Assembly (NCBI GenBank): GCA_947378425.1
Contig: CANCJV010000014.1
Coordinates: 1-64,000 of the forward strand
DNA from: Synechococcaceae cyanobacterium
GTDB taxonomy: Bacteria > Cyanobacteriota > Cyanobacteriia > PCC-6307 > Cyanobiaceae
DNA length: 64,000 bases
Direction: 5' to 3'
Shown here piece after piece: positions 40,578 to 47,704 of the stretch. Position numbers and translations under genes: made by a program. The notes under the pieces were generated by a model. It searched no databases and was not told the DNA's origin. It worked only from the letters and a program-made list of their open reading frames with translations. Every line of letters starts with the position of its first letter. Position 1 is the first letter of the stretch.

Positions 40578-42019
40578 TGGCTCGCACCGTCGTCATCGAT
40601 CCGGTCACCCGGATTGAGGGTCACGCCAAGATCACCCTGCACCTCGACGACGACGGCCATCTCGTCGACAGCCGTTTCCATGTGGTCGAGTATCGCGGCT
40701 TCGAGACCTTCTGCGAGGGCCGGCCCTTCACCGAGATGGCGGGCATCACCGCCCGCATCTGCGGCATCTGCCCGGTGAGCCATCTGCTGGCGGCGGCCAA
40801 GACCGGCGACAAGTTGCTGGCGGTGCAGATCCCGGCGGCGGCGCTGAAGCTGCGGCGCCTGCTCAACCTGGCCCAGATCACCCAGAGCCACGCCCTGTCG
40901 TTCTTTCATCTCAGTAGCCCCGATTTTCTGCTGGGCTGGGAGAGCGATCCGGCTCGCCGCAACATCTTCGGCCTGATCGCCGCCGACCCGGAGCTGGCCC
41001 GCGCCGGCATTCGCCTGCGCCAGTTCGGCCAGCAGATCCTCGAGCTGCTCGGCGGCCGCAAAATCCATGCCGCCTGGGCGGTGCCCGGTGGGGTGCGCTC
41101 TCCCCTGAGCGTCGAGGCGCGGGACTGGATTCTGGCCCGGTTGCCCGAAGCGAAGGAGACCATCCGCCTGGCCCTGGAGCTGCACAAGCGTCTGCTCGAT
41201 GGCCCCCTGCAACAGGAGCAGCGCTTGTTCGGCACCTTCCCCAGCCTGTTCATGGGCCTGGTGACACCGGAGGGGCTGTGGGAGCACCTCGATGGCCAGC
41301 TGCGCTTCCGGGACAGCGAGGGGACGGTTGTGGCCGATGACCTGGGGGAGGACGACTACGCCAACTTTCTGGGGGAGGCGGTGGAGCCCTGGAGCTATCT
41401 GAAGTTCCCCTACTACCGGCCGCTCGGCTATCCCGACGGCCTCTACCGGGTGGGCCCCCTGGCCCGCCTCAATGTCTGCGAGCGGATCGGCAGCGCCTGG
41501 GCTGACCGGGAGCTGGCGGAATTCCGCCAGCGCAGTGGCCGGGTGGCCATCTCGAGCTTCGCCTATCACCATGCCCGGCTGGTGGAGATCGTCGCCTGCC
41601 TGGAGGCGATCGGCGACCTTGTCGAGGATCCGGAGCTGATGCATGGGCGAGTGCGCTCCCATGCCCGCCTCAACCGCAACGAGGCGGTGGGGGTGAGTGA
41701 GGCGCCGCGGGGCACCCTGTTCCATCACTACCGCGTCGATGACGACGGTCTGCTGACCAAGGTGAATCTGATCATCGCCACCGGTCAGAACAACCTGGCG
41801 ATGAACCGCACCGTGCATCAGATCGCCCGGGCCTATATCCCCGATCCTGTGCCGGCGGGGGTGGAGATTCCCGAGGCCCTGCTCAACCGGGTGGAGGCGG
41901 GCATCCGCTGCTTCGATCCCTGTCTCTCCTGCAGCACCCATGCCGCTGGTCAGATGCCCCTGGCGATCAGCCTGGTGGCGGCCGACGGCCGGGTGCTGGC
42001 GGAGCGCTGCCGTGGATGA
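40577..42019 (+). CDS. hoxH: bidirectional [NiFe] hydrogenase large subunit
   Basis: Catalytic subunit of 480 residues. It starts [19 protein letters not shown], has the N-terminal nickel ligand motif [13 protein letters not shown], and the C-terminal motif [16 protein letters not shown]. The Cys residues of these motifs bind the Ni-Fe centre. The C-terminal peptide after the His would be cleaved by HoxW. Middle segments [21 protein letters not shown] and [11 protein letters not shown] are typical of HoxH. It splits or makes H2 with NAD(P)H or ferredoxin as partner. Confidence 0.96.
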
Positions 42020-42081
42020 GGGGCCGCCCGCCCGGGGGCGATCCCCGCGCTGCCCGGGCGGCCCCGACAGCGCTGATGCGG

Positions 42082-42275
42082 AGGGTCGGGACGAAGATCG
42101 CAGTGTTGCAGCGCGTCGTGGTGCAGACGCTGGAGATGAAACCGCGGTGATGAAGGCTGTGTTGACGAAGAGCGCGTTGACGATGACTGGGTCGACGAAG
42201 ATTGAGTCGTCCAAGCCCGTGTTGACGCAGACTCCGGCGTCCCGGGCCCCGGTGCCGCAGGCTGCGGTGGCGCAG
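42082..42275 (+). repeat. 15-bp-period repeat tract at the hoxW 5' end
   Basis: A tract in which GTG/TTG-ACG-AAG-like triplets recur every 15 bp. From 42156, eight units (42156-42275) read AVLTK, SALTM, TGSTK, IESSK, PVLTQ, TPASR, APVPQ and AAVAQ. Upstream, from about 42082, units with the same 15-bp spacing continue but are 1 bp out of register, so the phase shifts near 42142-42155. The tract spans the 5' end of hoxW. Confidence 0.7.
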
Positions 42276-42731
42276 AAGCTGATGGCGTGCCCGCCCCGCT
42301 CGCTGGTGATCGGCATCGGCAATCCGCTGCGCAGCGACGATGGCGTCGGTTGGCGCCTGGCCGAGGAGGTGGGGGGGCTGGCTGTGCACCAGCTCACCCC
42401 GGAGCTGGCGGCCGAGTTGCTCCGGGTGGATCGGGTGCTGTTTGTCGATGCCTGGCAGCTGCCATCGGCGGCGGCCGCTCAGGGGCGGCTGCGACCACGG
42501 TTGTGCCCGCTCGCTCCAGGCAGCGCGGGCCAGACCTCCAGTCATCGGCTGGAGCCGGCCCAGCTGCTGGCCCTGGCGTTCGCCCTCTATGGGGCCCGGC
42601 CCGCGGCGGCTGAGCTGTTGCTGCCGGCCCGAGAGTTTGCCCACGGCGTTGTCCTCTCTCCCGCCCTGCGCCGCCAGCTGCCGCAGGCGCGGCGCCTGCT
42701 CAGGCACTGGCTGGGGCGAGCTGATGCATGA
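42150..42731 (+). CDS. hoxW: HoxH C-terminal maturation protease HoxW
   Basis: Endopeptidase that removes the C-terminal peptide of HoxH after nickel insertion. The core is SLVIGIGNPLRSDDGVGWRLAEEVGG, VDRVLFVDAWQL, SHRLEPAQLLALAFALYGARP and LPQARRLLRHWL, with Glu/Asp and His residues for sensing nickel. Family members are about 150-160 aa; an ATG at 42282 would give 149 residues. The ATG at 42150 adds 44 residues of a pentapeptide-period extension, and still earlier starts are possible. I keep 42150 as the most probable because 42282 has only a weak ribosome site. The gene overlaps hypA by 8 bp. Confidence 0.85.
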   Translation: MKAVLTKSALTMTGSTKIESSKPVLTQTPASRAPVPQAAVAQKLMACPPRSLVIGIGNPLRSDDGVGWRLAEEVGGLAVHQLTPELAAELLRVDRVLFVDAWQLPSAAAAQGRLRPRLCPLAPGSAGQTSSHRLEPAQLLALAFALYGARPAAAELLLPAREFAHGVVLSPALRRQLPQARRLLRHWLGRADA

Positions 42732-43065
42732 GCTCAGCCTGATGGATCGGGTGCGGCAGCTGGCTCTGGAGCGGGCCGGCGAGCACGGGGCCAGCCGCAT
42801 CCGTGCGATCACGTTGCGGATCGGGGCCCTGGCCGGGGTGGATCCCGAGGCCCTGCGCTTCGCGCACGAGGTGGTGATGGCGGACACGATCGCCGCCGGC
42901 AGCCGCCTGCAGCTGGTGGTGGTGACGGCGCTGTGCCGGTGCGGACCCTGCGGGGCCCCGTTCGAAGCGGCGGACGGGATCTGTGTCTGCCCGAGCTGCG
43001 GCACGATTAGCGGCGAGCTGCTGCAGGGACGGGAGCTGGAGCTGGCTTCGCTGGAGCTGGATTGA
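42724..43065 (+). CDS. hypA: hydrogenase nickel-insertion protein HypA
   Basis: A 113-residue nickel chaperone. The N-terminal MHELSLMDRV supplies the nickel-binding Met-His-Glu motif, and the zinc site is CRCGPCGAPF and CVCPSCG (two CxxC pairs). It delivers Ni to HoxH together with HypB. It starts within the 3' end of hoxW. It is followed by the broken NTF2-like gene and then hypB. Confidence 0.95.
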   Translation: MHELSLMDRVRQLALERAGEHGASRIRAITLRIGALAGVDPEALRFAHEVVMADTIAAGSRLQLVVVTALCRCGPCGAPFEAADGICVCPSCGTISGELLQGRELELASLELD

Positions 43066-43279
43066 GCCGTTCCGGCGATCGGATGCCTGATGGCCGATGC
43101 CGGGAGCGGTCCGAGATCAACGGCCGGGTGCCGGTATCGCCAGGACGGCGTGGTGTAGGCCGGCATGGTCGTGAGGGCGTGACATCGGACGGCAGGGCCG
43201 GCGAGATGGTGCCGGTCCGTCCCCTCGATGTGGCGCGCTGGGTTGGAGCGCTGGGCCGGTGCCCAGACCGGTGGCGGCT

Positions 43280-43668
43280 TCAGCTGAAACGGTCCGTGGG
43301 GTGGCGGACGGCGTGCCACTGGCCGTCCTGCCGGCGGTAGCTCGTGGTGGAGCGGATCTCGACACGGATCGGTTCACCGGCCCGGCTCATGCCGGCCCCC
43401 GTCTCGAGGCAGGTCCCGCACCCCATGTCGCTGGTCTCGACGATGTGGCGGTCGATTGCGACCGCCACATCGTCGAGACCAGCGTCGATTCTCGGATCAG
43501 CTGGGCCATCACGTCGCCCCGTTCCCGCTGAATCGCGCCGCTGGGGCCCATGGCACTGATGTCGTGCTGCTGCGACCAGATCGCCTCAATAGCGGCGAGA
43601 TCCCCCTGGACCATTCGGTTCAAGGCGTCGTAGGAGGCCTTCACGCTGGCTTCAAGGGACCGAGTCAT
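43280..43668 (-). pseudogene. NTF2/SnoaL-like protein, broken at an inverted repeat
   Basis: The N-terminal part (TRSLEASVKASYDALNRMVQGDLAAIEAIWSQQHDISAMGPSGAIQRERGDVMAQLIRES) is a SnoaL/NTF2-like start, and the C-terminal part (AIDRHIVETSDMGCGTCLETGAGM, then RVEIRSTTSYRRQDGQWHAVRHP) is the matching end, but they lie in different frames. They join at a perfect inverted repeat (listed separately), and the intact copy of the right arm encodes DRHIVETS. The gene sits between hypA and hypB on the opposite strand and is probably dead. Intact versions in relatives would be SnoaL-like proteins of unknown function. Confidence 0.75.
43429..43484. repeat. perfect 26-bp inverted repeat with 4-nt loop
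   Basis: Left arm 43429-43454 and right arm 43459-43484 are exact reverse complements; the loop is ATTG. It lies inside the SnoaL-like gene. On the minus strand the right arm codes the expected DRHIVETS and the left arm is its inverted copy at a place where unrelated sequence would be expected. Such a structure can form by template switching or foldback. Confidence 0.9.
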
Positions 43669-43781
43669 GCCGAGGAAGGCCGCAGCTGGCGGCGATGTTC
43701 GGCAACATCGCTAACTTGCAGGTTGTGGCGGTGATCCGTCACGGGCCGCCATCACGAACCGCCGTCAGGAGCGCATTCGCC

Positions 43782-45032
43782 ATGTGTGTGGACTGCAACT
43801 GTGGCCGCAGCGATCCAGGGGAGGTGACGATCTCCGGGCAGATCGCCGGTTCCGCGCCACCAGCCTCGGCGTCAGGGCCACGGCCAGGGCCACGGCCGGA
43901 GTCACGACCAGGGTCACGACCAGAGCCCCTGTCGGTGCCATCGATGGCCTCCCAGCACCCTGATTCCGCTCTCGCTCCTGTCCACGCCGCTGAAGTCCCT
44001 GGCGATCTTCCTGGCGATCGCCATCACCAAGGCCAACACCATCACCAGGATCTGAGCGCCACCTGCGACCGACCGTCGCAGGATCCGCCGTCGCAGCGGC
44101 CGTCAACCCACGGCCATGGTTCGCCTTGGCAGCCACCGCAACCCCAGCTCTTGCAGCCTCGGCCAGCTCAGCCACCGCCGTCCACTCCCCCAACCCCGTC
44201 TCGAGCCGAGCTCTCGTCGGAACCGGGGCTGCCATGGCAAGCCGAATGGCCATCGCCGTCGCACTCTCAGCGGTTGCCACCCTTGCCGTTCGCAGATCAA
44301 TTGCCGCTGCCAACGCCATCCCAGTCGCCGGCGCGATCCAGTTCACCGTCAGTTCCGCCGTCACTCCCTCCCCGCTCGCTGACCCTGACGGATCGGCTCC
44401 TGGCCCATAACGAGGCTCACGCTGCTGTCAACCGCCGGCGCTTCGCGGCGGCGGGGGTGACGGTGGTGAACCTGCTGTCTTCGCCCGGTTCCGGCAAGAC
44501 GGCCCTGCTGGAGCGGCTGGCTCGCTCCAGCAGGGGGGCGATGGCGGTGATCGTCGGCGATCTGGCCACCGACAACGATGCCCGTCGCCTGCGGGCCGCC
44601 GGTCTGCCGGCGGTGCAGATCACCACCGGGCAGGCCTGCCATCTGGAGGCGGCGATGGTGCAGCGGGCCGTCGATGTCCTCGAAGCCCAGGGCCAGCCCC
44701 TGGCGGAGCTGGAGCTGCTGCTGATCGAAAACGTCGGCAATCTGGTCTGTCCCGCCGCCTACGACCTGGGCGAGAGCCTGCGGCTGGTGCTGCTGGCGGC
44801 CGGCGAGGGCGAGGACAAGCCGCTGAAATATCCCGCCCTGTTCCACTCCGCCGATCTGGTGGTGATCAGCAAGAGCGATCTGGCCGAAGCGGTGGCCTTC
44901 GATCGGCCCCAGGCCCTGCGGGCGATCGCCACGGTGGCGCCGAAGGCCCGGGTGTTCGAGTGTTCAGCCCGTACGGGCGCCGGCATTGAGGCCCTGCTGG
45001 AGGCACTGTCACCTCTGCGCCTGCCGGCATGA
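43782..45032 (+). CDS. hypB: hydrogenase nickel-incorporation GTPase HypB with long Pro/His-rich linker
   Basis: A 416-residue protein; known HypB are about 210-290. Residues 1-8 (MCVDCNCG) hold the N-terminal CxxCxC nickel-binding motif. Residues about 9-198 form a Pro/Ser/Gln-rich low-complexity linker with a His cluster (RHHQGQHHHQ, about residues 79-90) and 12-bp tandem repeats. The GTPase domain (about 199-416) has SSPGSGKT, GDLATDNDA, GQACHLEAAM, IENVGNLVCPA, and NKxD-like SKSDL. It inserts nickel into HoxH with HypA using GTP. Divergent from the SnoaL-like pseudogene and overlapping hypF by 4 bp (ATGA). Confidence 0.9.
   Translation: MCVDCNCGRSDPGEVTISGQIAGSAPPASASGPRPGPRPESRPGSRPEPLSVPSMASQHPDSALAPVHAAEVPGDLPGDRHHQGQHHHQDLSATCDRPSQDPPSQRPSTHGHGSPWQPPQPQLLQPRPAQPPPSTPPTPSRAELSSEPGLPWQAEWPSPSHSQRLPPLPFADQLPLPTPSQSPARSSSPSVPPSLPPRSLTLTDRLLAHNEAHAAVNRRRFAAAGVTVVNLLSSPGSGKTALLERLARSSRGAMAVIVGDLATDNDARRLRAAGLPAVQITTGQACHLEAAMVQRAVDVLEAQGQPLAELELLLIENVGNLVCPAAYDLGESLRLVLLAAGEGEDKPLKYPALFHSADLVVISKSDLAEAVAFDRPQALRAIATVAPKARVFECSARTGAGIEALLEALSPLRLPA
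43875..43922 (+). repeat. 12-bp tandem repeat in hypB linker
   Basis: Four 12-bp units at 43875-43886, 43887-43898, 43899-43910 and 43911-43922 encode GPRP, GPRP, ESRP and GSRP. The repeat is in frame with hypB and lies in the linker (about residues 32-47). It is evidence that the linker grew by slippage or unequal exchange. Confidence 0.8.
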
Positions 45033-47704
45033 GCGGCGAGCGCGCCGGCCTGCGGCTGCACTGCCGCGGCGTGGTGCAGGGCGTCGGCTTCCGTCCCTGG
45101 GTGCACCGGCTGGCAACGGAACTGGAGCTCGACGGGGCCCTGTTCAATGGCGCCGAAGGGGTGTCGGTGGAGCTATCCGGCCCCCGCTCGCAGTTGCAGT
45201 GCTTCCTGCGGCGCCTGGTGGCGGAGCTGCCGGCCCCGGCCCGGCTGGAGCCCCTGCTGCCGCAATGGGGCCCAGCCATGGCGGCCCGGGGTCAGGGGGT
45301 GCGGATCGACGCCGGCCCGCCTCAGCCGCTGGGGGAAGGTTGGCTGGCGCCGAGCCTGGCGCCTGATCGTGCCCCCTGTGCTGATTGTCTGGTGGAGCTG
45401 GAGGATCCGGCCAGTCGCCGCTTCGGCGATCCCTTCCTCAGCTGTGCCCGCTGCGGCCCCCGCTACAGCATCGCCCTGGCTCGCCCCTACCGGCGTGCCC
45501 ACACCACCCTGGCCGGCTTTTCCCCGTGCGAAGCCTGCCGGCGGGAGTTTGCCGATCCCGGCGATCGCCGGTTCCATGCCGAGACGATCAGCTGCCCCCG
45601 GTGCGGACCGCGCCTGTGTCTCTGGGATCAGGCGGGTCAGGCGAGCGGCACCACCGATGCCCCGGCTGGTCTCCAGGCCGATCCCCTGGGGAGGGCCTGC
45701 GAGCTGTTGGCGGCCGGTCGAATCCTGGCGCTGCAGGGGGTGGGCGGGTTCCAGTTGCTGGTGGATGCCGCCGATCCGGCTGCCGTGGCCCGGTTGCGGC
45801 GGCGCAAGCGGCGGCCGGCGAAGCCCTTCGCCCTGCTGGTGGCCGATGAGGCCTGGCTGGCGGCGGCGGTCTGGATCGACGCGGCTGAACGCCTGGCCCT
45901 GCGCGATGGAGCGGCGCCGATCGTGCTGCTGCGCCGTCGCCCGGCGCCGGTGGAGCTCTGGCCCGGGGTGGCTCCGGGCAGCCCGGCCCTGGGGGTGATG
46001 CGGCCCGCTTCGCCGCTGCACCAGCTCTTGGCGCAGCGCCTGGGCCGGCCGCTGGTGGCGACCAGCGGCAATCGCAGCGGTGAACTCCTCTGCCGCGATC
46101 CGCTCGAGGCCCGCCAACGGCTCGCCGGCATCGCCGATGCCTATCTGGTGCATGACCGACCGATTGCCCGGCCCCTGGATGACTCGCTGCTGCAGGTGAT
46201 TGAGGGGCGGCCGGTGCTGCTGCGCCGGGCCCGGGGCTACGCCCCCGAGCCCCTGCTCCTGCCGGCGGCGGATCCGTCCCTGCCGGCGGGCCCGGCCCTG
46301 CTGGCGCTCTCGGGGGATCTCAAGTGCGCACCGGGATTGGCGTTGGGGGATCGCCTCTGGCTGGCGCCCCACCTGGGGGATCTGGCTGATCGGCGCTGCC
46401 AGGAGCGCCTGGTGCAGGGGCTGGCGGAGCTCACCGGGGTGTCCCTGGGCCAGCTGGAGCCAGGGCGCCTGGCCTCTGAGCCCCTGGCCGCGGCGCCGCT
46501 GGTCCCTGGGCTGCAGGAGAGCCGTACTGCCTGTCCGTCCGGCCCTGAGCTGCAGGCAGGGCCTGGGCCGCTGGCGATCACGCTCGTCTGTGATGCCCAT
46601 CCGGGCTCGATCAGCCACCAGGTGGCCCAGGCCAGCGGCCTGCCGTTGCGCCTCGTGCAGCACCATCTGGCCCATGGTCTGGCGGTGATGGCTGAGCACG
46701 GCCTGGAGCCACCGCTGCTGGTGGCGGCCTTCGATGGACTCGGTTACGGGGAATCGCTCACGGCCGGGACCAGTCCCCATGGGACCAGTCCCCAAGGGAC
46801 CAGCCTCGATGGGGTCAGTCCCGATGGGGCCCATCGCACTGGGACCAACCCCACGGGAGCCGCCGAGCCCTGGGCGGACGCCTCCGCGTTTCCCGTTCGC
46901 CTCTGGGGAGGCGAACTGCTGTTGATCAGCCATGGGAGTGCCGGCGGCGCCTGGCGGGCCCGGCACCTGGCGGGACTGCGGCCCTTCCCCTTGCCGGGCG
47001 GTGAACGGGCGATGGCCGAGCCGCGCCGGGCGGCTCTGGGACTGCTGCTGGCGGCCGACGCCCTCGACCATGCCGGTGCCTGGAGGGTGCGCCAGGCCTT
47101 CGCGCCGGCCGATCTGGCCTTGCTCTGCCAGGCGGTGGCCTCCGGCTGCCAGGCGCCGCTGTGCTCCAGCGGCGGGCGCCTGTTCGATGGGGTGGCTTCG
47201 CTGCTGGGCCTGGTTCAGGTGCTCAGTCACGAGGGCGAAGGGGGCCTGCGGCTGCAGGGTGCGGCGACCCGGGCGGATCCGGATGCCACCTGGGCCGGGG
47301 TGCGACCCGCTGCCAGGGGCGACGACGCCCTGCTGCCGCTGCTCCCTCCTGAGGGCAGCGGCAGCCGTTGGTGGCTCGATTGGCGGCCACTGCTGCTGCG
47401 GGTGCTGGACGGGGTTGCGGCCGGGACCCCGTCCGAACGGGTGGCGCTGCGCTTTCATCGGGAGTTGGCCGAGGGCCTGGCCAGCGCCCTGGCGGTCTGG
47501 GCCGATCGCCTGGAACTGGCTGCCGATCAGCGCCGTGTGGCCCTGGCGGGGGGCTGTTTCCAGAACCGCCTGCTGCTGGAGGGTGCCAGCGCGGGCTTGC
47601 GGCGACGGGGGCTGGTGCCCTGGTGGTCCGAGCAGGTGCCGGCCAACGACGGCGGCCTGGCCCTGGGGCAGGCGTGGGCTGGGCGGCGGGGGCTGTGGCT
47701 ATAA
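45029..47704 (+). CDS. hypF: carbamoyltransferase HypF
   Basis: A protein of 891 residues for synthesis of the cyanide ligands, which uses carbamoyl phosphate and ATP to load HypE. The acylphosphatase domain has GVVQGVGFRPWVHRLA. Two zinc fingers follow (CADCLVEL/CARCGPRY and CEACRREF/CPRCGPRL). The YrdC-like domain has KRRPAKPFALL and LVATSGNRSGE. The Kae1-like C-terminal domain has QHHLAHGLAVMAEHGL and GGCFQNRLLLE. Near residues 580-609 there is a pentapeptide-period insertion (listed separately). The length is above the usual 750-800. It overlaps hypB upstream and precedes hypC by 36 bp. Confidence 0.93.
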   Translation: MSGERAGLRLHCRGVVQGVGFRPWVHRLATELELDGALFNGAEGVSVELSGPRSQLQCFLRRLVAELPAPARLEPLLPQWGPAMAARGQGVRIDAGPPQPLGEGWLAPSLAPDRAPCADCLVELEDPASRRFGDPFLSCARCGPRYSIALARPYRRAHTTLAGFSPCEACRREFADPGDRRFHAETISCPRCGPRLCLWDQAGQASGTTDAPAGLQADPLGRACELLAAGRILALQGVGGFQLLVDAADPAAVARLRRRKRRPAKPFALLVADEAWLAAAVWIDAAERLALRDGAAPIVLLRRRPAPVELWPGVAPGSPALGVMRPASPLHQLLAQRLGRPLVATSGNRSGELLCRDPLEARQRLAGIADAYLVHDRPIARPLDDSLLQVIEGRPVLLRRARGYAPEPLLLPAADPSLPAGPALLALSGDLKCAPGLALGDRLWLAPHLGDLADRRCQERLVQGLAELTGVSLGQLEPGRLASEPLAAAPLVPGLQESRTACPSGPELQAGPGPLAITLVCDAHPGSISHQVAQASGLPLRLVQHHLAHGLAVMAEHGLEPPLLVAAFDGLGYGESLTAGTSPHGTSPQGTSLDGVSPDGAHRTGTNPTGAAEPWADASAFPVRLWGGELLLISHGSAGGAWRARHLAGLRPFPLPGGERAMAEPRRAALGLLLAADALDHAGAWRVRQAFAPADLALLCQAVASGCQAPLCSSGGRLFDGVASLLGLVQVLSHEGEGGLRLQGAATRADPDATWAGVRPAARGDDALLPLLPPEGSGSRWWLDWRPLLLRVLDGVAAGTPSERVALRFHRELAEGLASALAVWADRLELAADQRRVALAGGCFQNRLLLEGASAGLRRRGLVPWWSEQVPANDGGLALGQAWAGRRGLWL
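46766..46855 (+). repeat. 15-bp tandem repeat inside hypF
   Basis: Six 15-bp units from 46766 to 46855 encode pentapeptides beginning with Gly: GTSPH, GTSPQ, GTSLD, GVSPD, GAHRT and GTNPT. They form an in-frame low-complexity insertion between the Kae1-like strand FDGLGYG and the segment that continues LWGGELLL. The core of the fold is not disrupted. Confidence 0.85.

Follow-up and report, generated by a model that had tools for sequence, protein, structure and literature searches.

How does a long perfect palindrome come to lie within a protein-coding gene, and is it a product of mutation, of selection, or of the sequencing itself? The question is raised by a 56-bp palindrome in contig CANCJV010000014.1 of a Synechococcaceae cyanobacterium (assembly GCA_947378425.1), of which positions 1 to 64,000 were analysed as a single stretch, here called the window. 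A first-pass annotation had described a perfect 26-bp inverted repeat with a 4-nt loop at 43429-43484, breaking an NTF2/SnoaL-like gene between hypA and hypB. Both the geometry (arms 43429-43454 and 43459-43484, 26 nt each, 100% complementary, with a 4-nt loop between them) and the setting were borne out, the broken gene being flanked by matches to TIGR00100 and TIGR00073 above cut-off. The palindrome very probably records a single short-range template switch during replication, and the observed footprint matches such a switch: a perfect reverse-complement copy lies near its source, homologous sequence has been replaced, the flanks are colinear, and the palindrome is absent from five relatives.

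The annotation had also proposed that one arm is inherited coding sequence and the other its inverted copy, and comparison with homologues supported this. Seventeen homologous sequences were picked by a loosened regular expression, a selection that did not find all homologues and left out genome G016 and copies with partial deletions; for rows L043 and L045 the spacer was taken as one residue shorter, and L045 is unlike the remaining rows. Arm 43429-43454, which covers the region of the RHIVETS motif, fitted better than arm 43459-43484 in 17 of 17 (289 of 442 bases against 188 of 440, or means of 17.0 and 11.1 of 26). Against the copies at the same site in two relatives, the former arm was identical at 17/26 (G021) and 19/26 (G016) positions and the latter at 13/26 and 9/26, while the 60 nt upstream of the arms were identical at 46/60 and 49/60. 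Among the homologues themselves the order is reversed: the segment corresponding to 43459-43484 shows the higher conservation in 14 of 17 (all but L043, L045, and L046), and the G021 copy matches the other homologues at 18.9/26 there and at 14.9/26 in the other segment, as against 11.1 and 17.0 for the window. Because the fit of the window arms runs opposite to the homologues' own conservation, 43459-43484 was identified as the overwritten recipient and 43429-43454 as the source. The reverse complement of the homologues' donor segment matches the recipient arm at exactly the better score, since the arms are exact complements. The homologue comparison thus gives, at the level of sequence, the polarity of donor and recipient, the replacement, and the nearly preserved length.

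That sequence was replaced and not inserted follows from the spacing. Counted by eye, the stretch that starts at the ES codons and runs to the conserved GAC measures 65 nt in the window, one less than the 66 nt of G021, and the alignment of the two has one 1-base gap; insertion of one arm was rejected on this ground. G016 has 14 extra nt in the same stretch, a lesion of its own. Near-equal length is predicted by a two-switch event, out and back, and not by a foldback artefact.

The position of the frameshift had to be revised. The gene had been said to change frame across the arms, but an intact homologue aligned as two separate pieces, one (residues 3-63) at 43480-43662 and the other (residues 63-128) at 43286-43483, which join at 43480-43483. 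The second, C-terminal piece spans both arms, so that arm 43459-43484 is also read in the C-terminal frame; neither arm contains a stop in this downstream frame. What shifts the frame is one base missing at the outer edge of the recipient arm. This arm, the first in the sense of the gene, reads AGLDDVAVA where most homologues have MGF-G-LVA.

A course of events can be proposed. The inherited gene would have carried a weak quasi-palindrome at the site, judging from the homologues, and a polymerase copying the gene would have left its template for about 26 nt to follow the nascent or the opposite strand, copied the donor arm as its reverse complement, and then switched back. About 27 inherited nt would in this way have been overwritten by the 26-nt mirror copy at 43459-43484, with the one-base deficit arising at one of the switch points. 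From this footprint I infer what the polymerase did, which strand it used, and that the one-base loss belongs to the same event. In the register of the palindrome the 17 homologues pair at a mean of 11.2 of 26 positions, compared with about 7 over 250 registers, which makes it the second best register on average and agrees, weakly, with a quasi-palindrome as the possible starting sequence.

The gene was then sought at the same site in 42 genomes of the genus (own genome included), 37 of which had a hypA match at E <= 1e-8, with 39 matches in total; the best 30 of these 39 loci were examined. A remnant of the gene lay between hypA and hypB in six of the 30, namely in the own genome and in G014, G016, G020, G021, and G028. 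Among the remaining 24, five had hypB in the stretch and no remnant (L109, L114, L117, L119, and L105, where hypB is at the edge only), and in the other 19 hypB was not detected in the stretch examined. The gene is damaged or shortened at this site in all six genomes: G021 has a deletion of about 25 nt with a frameshift, G016 has several lesions and is frameshifted, G014 retains a fragment only, and in G020 and G028 the middle is gone and the frame is still open, which counts against a plain pseudogene reading. A further copy, with no stop within the matched part, is present elsewhere in all five relatives that have the remnant. The gene at the hypA-hypB site was taken as a decaying remnant and, because none of the six genomes keeps it whole, the scar is probably neutral and without function.

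The hypA-hypB interval of each of these five relatives was scanned, and the palindrome, whose in-frame presence in homologues the annotation had named as a refuting finding, was present in none of them. The annotation had further expected homologues without the left arm. Relatives without the palindrome do exist, but in plus-strand terms the left arm is the source and the right arm the copy, so it is the right arm that they lack. Imperfect inverted repeats of 15-26 nt (73-88%) occur in the interval of G020 and G014, away from the position of the palindrome (L066:2247-2274, L066:2503-2574, and L068:3035-3085). A homologue search of GTDB contigs yielded one distant locus only, in Mycobacterium scrofulaceum at 38% identity, which was not used.

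Several observations weigh against a template switch as the origin. The self-complementarity of the homologues is weak, with 9-14 of 26 pairs in 16 of the 17 and 4 in L045. The position of the palindrome is kept only in G021 and G016 and is deleted in the other three of the five relatives, and these nearest same-site copies are no closer than 78% (G021) and 82% (G016, over 106 bases) identity in their matched parts. Finally, in a DNA search of 60 genomes, the 25 bases at 43452-43476, comprising the loop and part of the recipient arm, matched an unrelated open frame of G029 at 96% (E 3.2e-4 for one genome). This match, at L032:1501-1525, encodes part of DCDRHIIE (DRHIIE) in a different protein and was taken as chance; copying from a gene of this kind, though conceivable, would leave the perfect complementarity to the adjacent arm unaccounted for.

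The annotation had left the choice between a template switch and an assembly or amplification foldback. Foldback chimeras produce inverted repeats and the genome is a draft of 84 contigs, yet a palindrome made by sequencing, amplification or assembly and missing from the chromosome would be expected to show one junction and then the other strand, whereas here the gene, hypA, and hypB are colinear on both sides and the replaced stretch holds its length within one base. Since the gene continues colinearly on both flanks, this origin is unlikely, and the template switch is the better supported of the two. Selection for the hairpin, as an element for processing, stability, or termination of the hyp transcript or as a protein-binding site, would fit its position between two plus-strand genes of the same pathway and its very stable fold (-72.1 kcal/mol as RNA over 121 nt, z -7.5). 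Neither a terminator-like site, a stem followed by a T run, was found in 42900-44500 nor an Rfam match in 42000-45100, and the hairpin has no counterpart between hypA and hypB in the five relatives and no second copy in the genome, so that a selected hairpin appears quite improbable. I give still less credence to a combined course in which a single template switch turned arms that matched only weakly into the 26-bp hairpin, which later acquired a role in the processing or stability of the hypA-hypB transcript.

Hardly any credence attaches to the idea that the palindrome is coding sequence of a live gene that regains its frame through programmed -1 frameshifting at the hairpin. A strong hairpin does sit at the frame junction, its arms are stop-free in the downstream frame, and in G020 and G028 the open frame has survived the shortening; however, the sole heptamer resembling X XXY YYZ in 43280-43668 (GGGCCCC) is 65 nt upstream of the arm, and the same-site copies are frameshifted in G021 and G016, without their middle in G020 and G028, and a fragment in G014. 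Two further identities were rejected. A repeat family or mobile element is at odds with the lack of a second copy of the arm in the window (at up to 3 mismatches) and of its first 20 nt in the genome (at up to 2 mismatches), and 42700-44300 had no match in a phage collection and the arm no exact copy in IMG/VR. A terminator or known RNA was dismissed on the negative terminator and Rfam searches given above.

The palindrome stands well clear of the background. In the window and 20 further stretches of 20 kb (464 kb, about 13% of the 3.63-Mb genome), no other perfect inverted repeat with a loop of at most 20 nt was as long as the palindrome. The scan returned 51 inverted repeats with arms of at least 11, the second-longest arms being 19 bp, while one run of a first-order Markov control of the same size gave 5, with arms of 11-12 bp only. 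The genome is thus richer in such repeats than chance generally, and the 26-bp palindrome tops the list. Folded as single-stranded DNA, the 81-nt stretch had a z of -10.8, compared with -1.4 for its G021 counterpart. Further perfect inverted repeats in the same genome lie at L088:6572-6616 (19-bp arms), L077:14048-14093 (19), and L073:3792-3827 (18).

The mechanism itself is ordinary and already known, and nothing new is learned about it here; what stands out is the length of the arms and the cleanness of the example. In E. coli, template switches turn imperfect inverted repeats into perfect ones (PMC7202029), and the likeness lies in a switch to the nascent strand that makes an imperfect repeat perfect or more perfect; the present case differs in being a natural site with 26-bp arms whose homologues pair at only about 11/26. 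Arm homogenisation in yeast (PMC8604942) similarly involves a lineage-specific multi-base change in a protein-coding gene that overlaps a perfect inverted-repeat arm, but the longest arm in Table 1 of that paper is 16 bp, and the changes were found by comparing strains of a single species for which an ancestor had been reconstructed. The same template-switch footprint is described for great apes (PMC7954356), and PMC8794818 argues that a single such event can produce a perfect stem. In the four-point short-range model of these two papers a reverse-complement fragment replaces an ancestral segment and yields a perfect hairpin in one event, as proposed here; theirs is worked out with a pair hidden Markov model and a reconstructed ancestor, whereas identities were compared here. 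The coding palindromes of nematomorph mitochondria (PMC6649704) are likewise perfect inverted repeats within protein genes, but there both arms encode conserved protein and the genes are said to be functional, while here one arm overwrote sequence of a broken gene. A search of the cyanobacterial literature on template switches and inverted repeats gave no report of such a scar, judged by titles, and one on template-switch mutations and hairpins in bacterial genomes found none. The locus offers a clean example from a bacterial chromosome of a template switch that wrote a long perfect hairpin at a single stroke, and homologues allow its donor and recipient to be distinguished; it illustrates that long perfect stems in draft genomes can be mutation scars instead of functional elements or artefacts.

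Coordinates of the palindrome, the broken gene, and the flanking hyp genes in the window
Feature	Position	Strand	Remarks
Donor arm	43429..43454	-	Inherited coding sequence, RHIVETS motif region; mean 17.0/26 identity to 17 homologues
Loop	43455..43458	.	4 nt between the arms
Recipient arm	43459..43484	-	Replaced by a reverse-complement copy of 43429-43454; mean identity to the 17 homologues 11.1/26
Single-base deficit	43484..43486	-	Shifts the frame; gap in the G021 alignment, at the outer edge of the recipient arm
Broken SnoaL/DUF4440-like gene (NTF2-fold by family)	43280..43668	-	Start codon at 43668, stop codon 43280-43282; the N- and C-terminal halves match intact homologues in different frames
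hypA	42724..43065	+	TIGR00100 above cut-off
hypB, conserved part	44385..45032	+	Part of ORF 43695-45032; TIGR00073 above cut-off

The pieces of the broken gene matched DUF4440 and SnoaL_3 weakly, under the Pfam gathering cut-off, while two intact homologues scored above the cut-offs, which is why the gene was called a broken homologue. The own genome held no other copy of it at E <= 0.01. In G014 an intact SnoaL-like gene (L011:1294-1680) sits after another open reading frame, which is presumably ClpP-like, and is followed on the other strand by a frame that looks SnoaL-like by eye (L011:1716-2240). The hypB frame of the window has a long Pro/Ser/Gln-rich N-terminal extension (43695-44384) ahead of the conserved GTPase part; the frame at the hypB position of G016 (L036:2195-3325) has a His-rich stretch in its place. 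Just upstream of the start of the broken gene, at 43669-43697, 27-29 bases match G004, G009, G012, and G025 at 93%, within a gene that I take from its motifs to be an ABC-transporter-like ATPase; this match may be a gene fragment or chance. The octamer GCGATCGC, the cyanobacterial HIP1 sequence, occurred 78 times in the 464 kb (window and L070-L089) where about 16 were expected from base composition, an abundance that fits a cyanobacterium.
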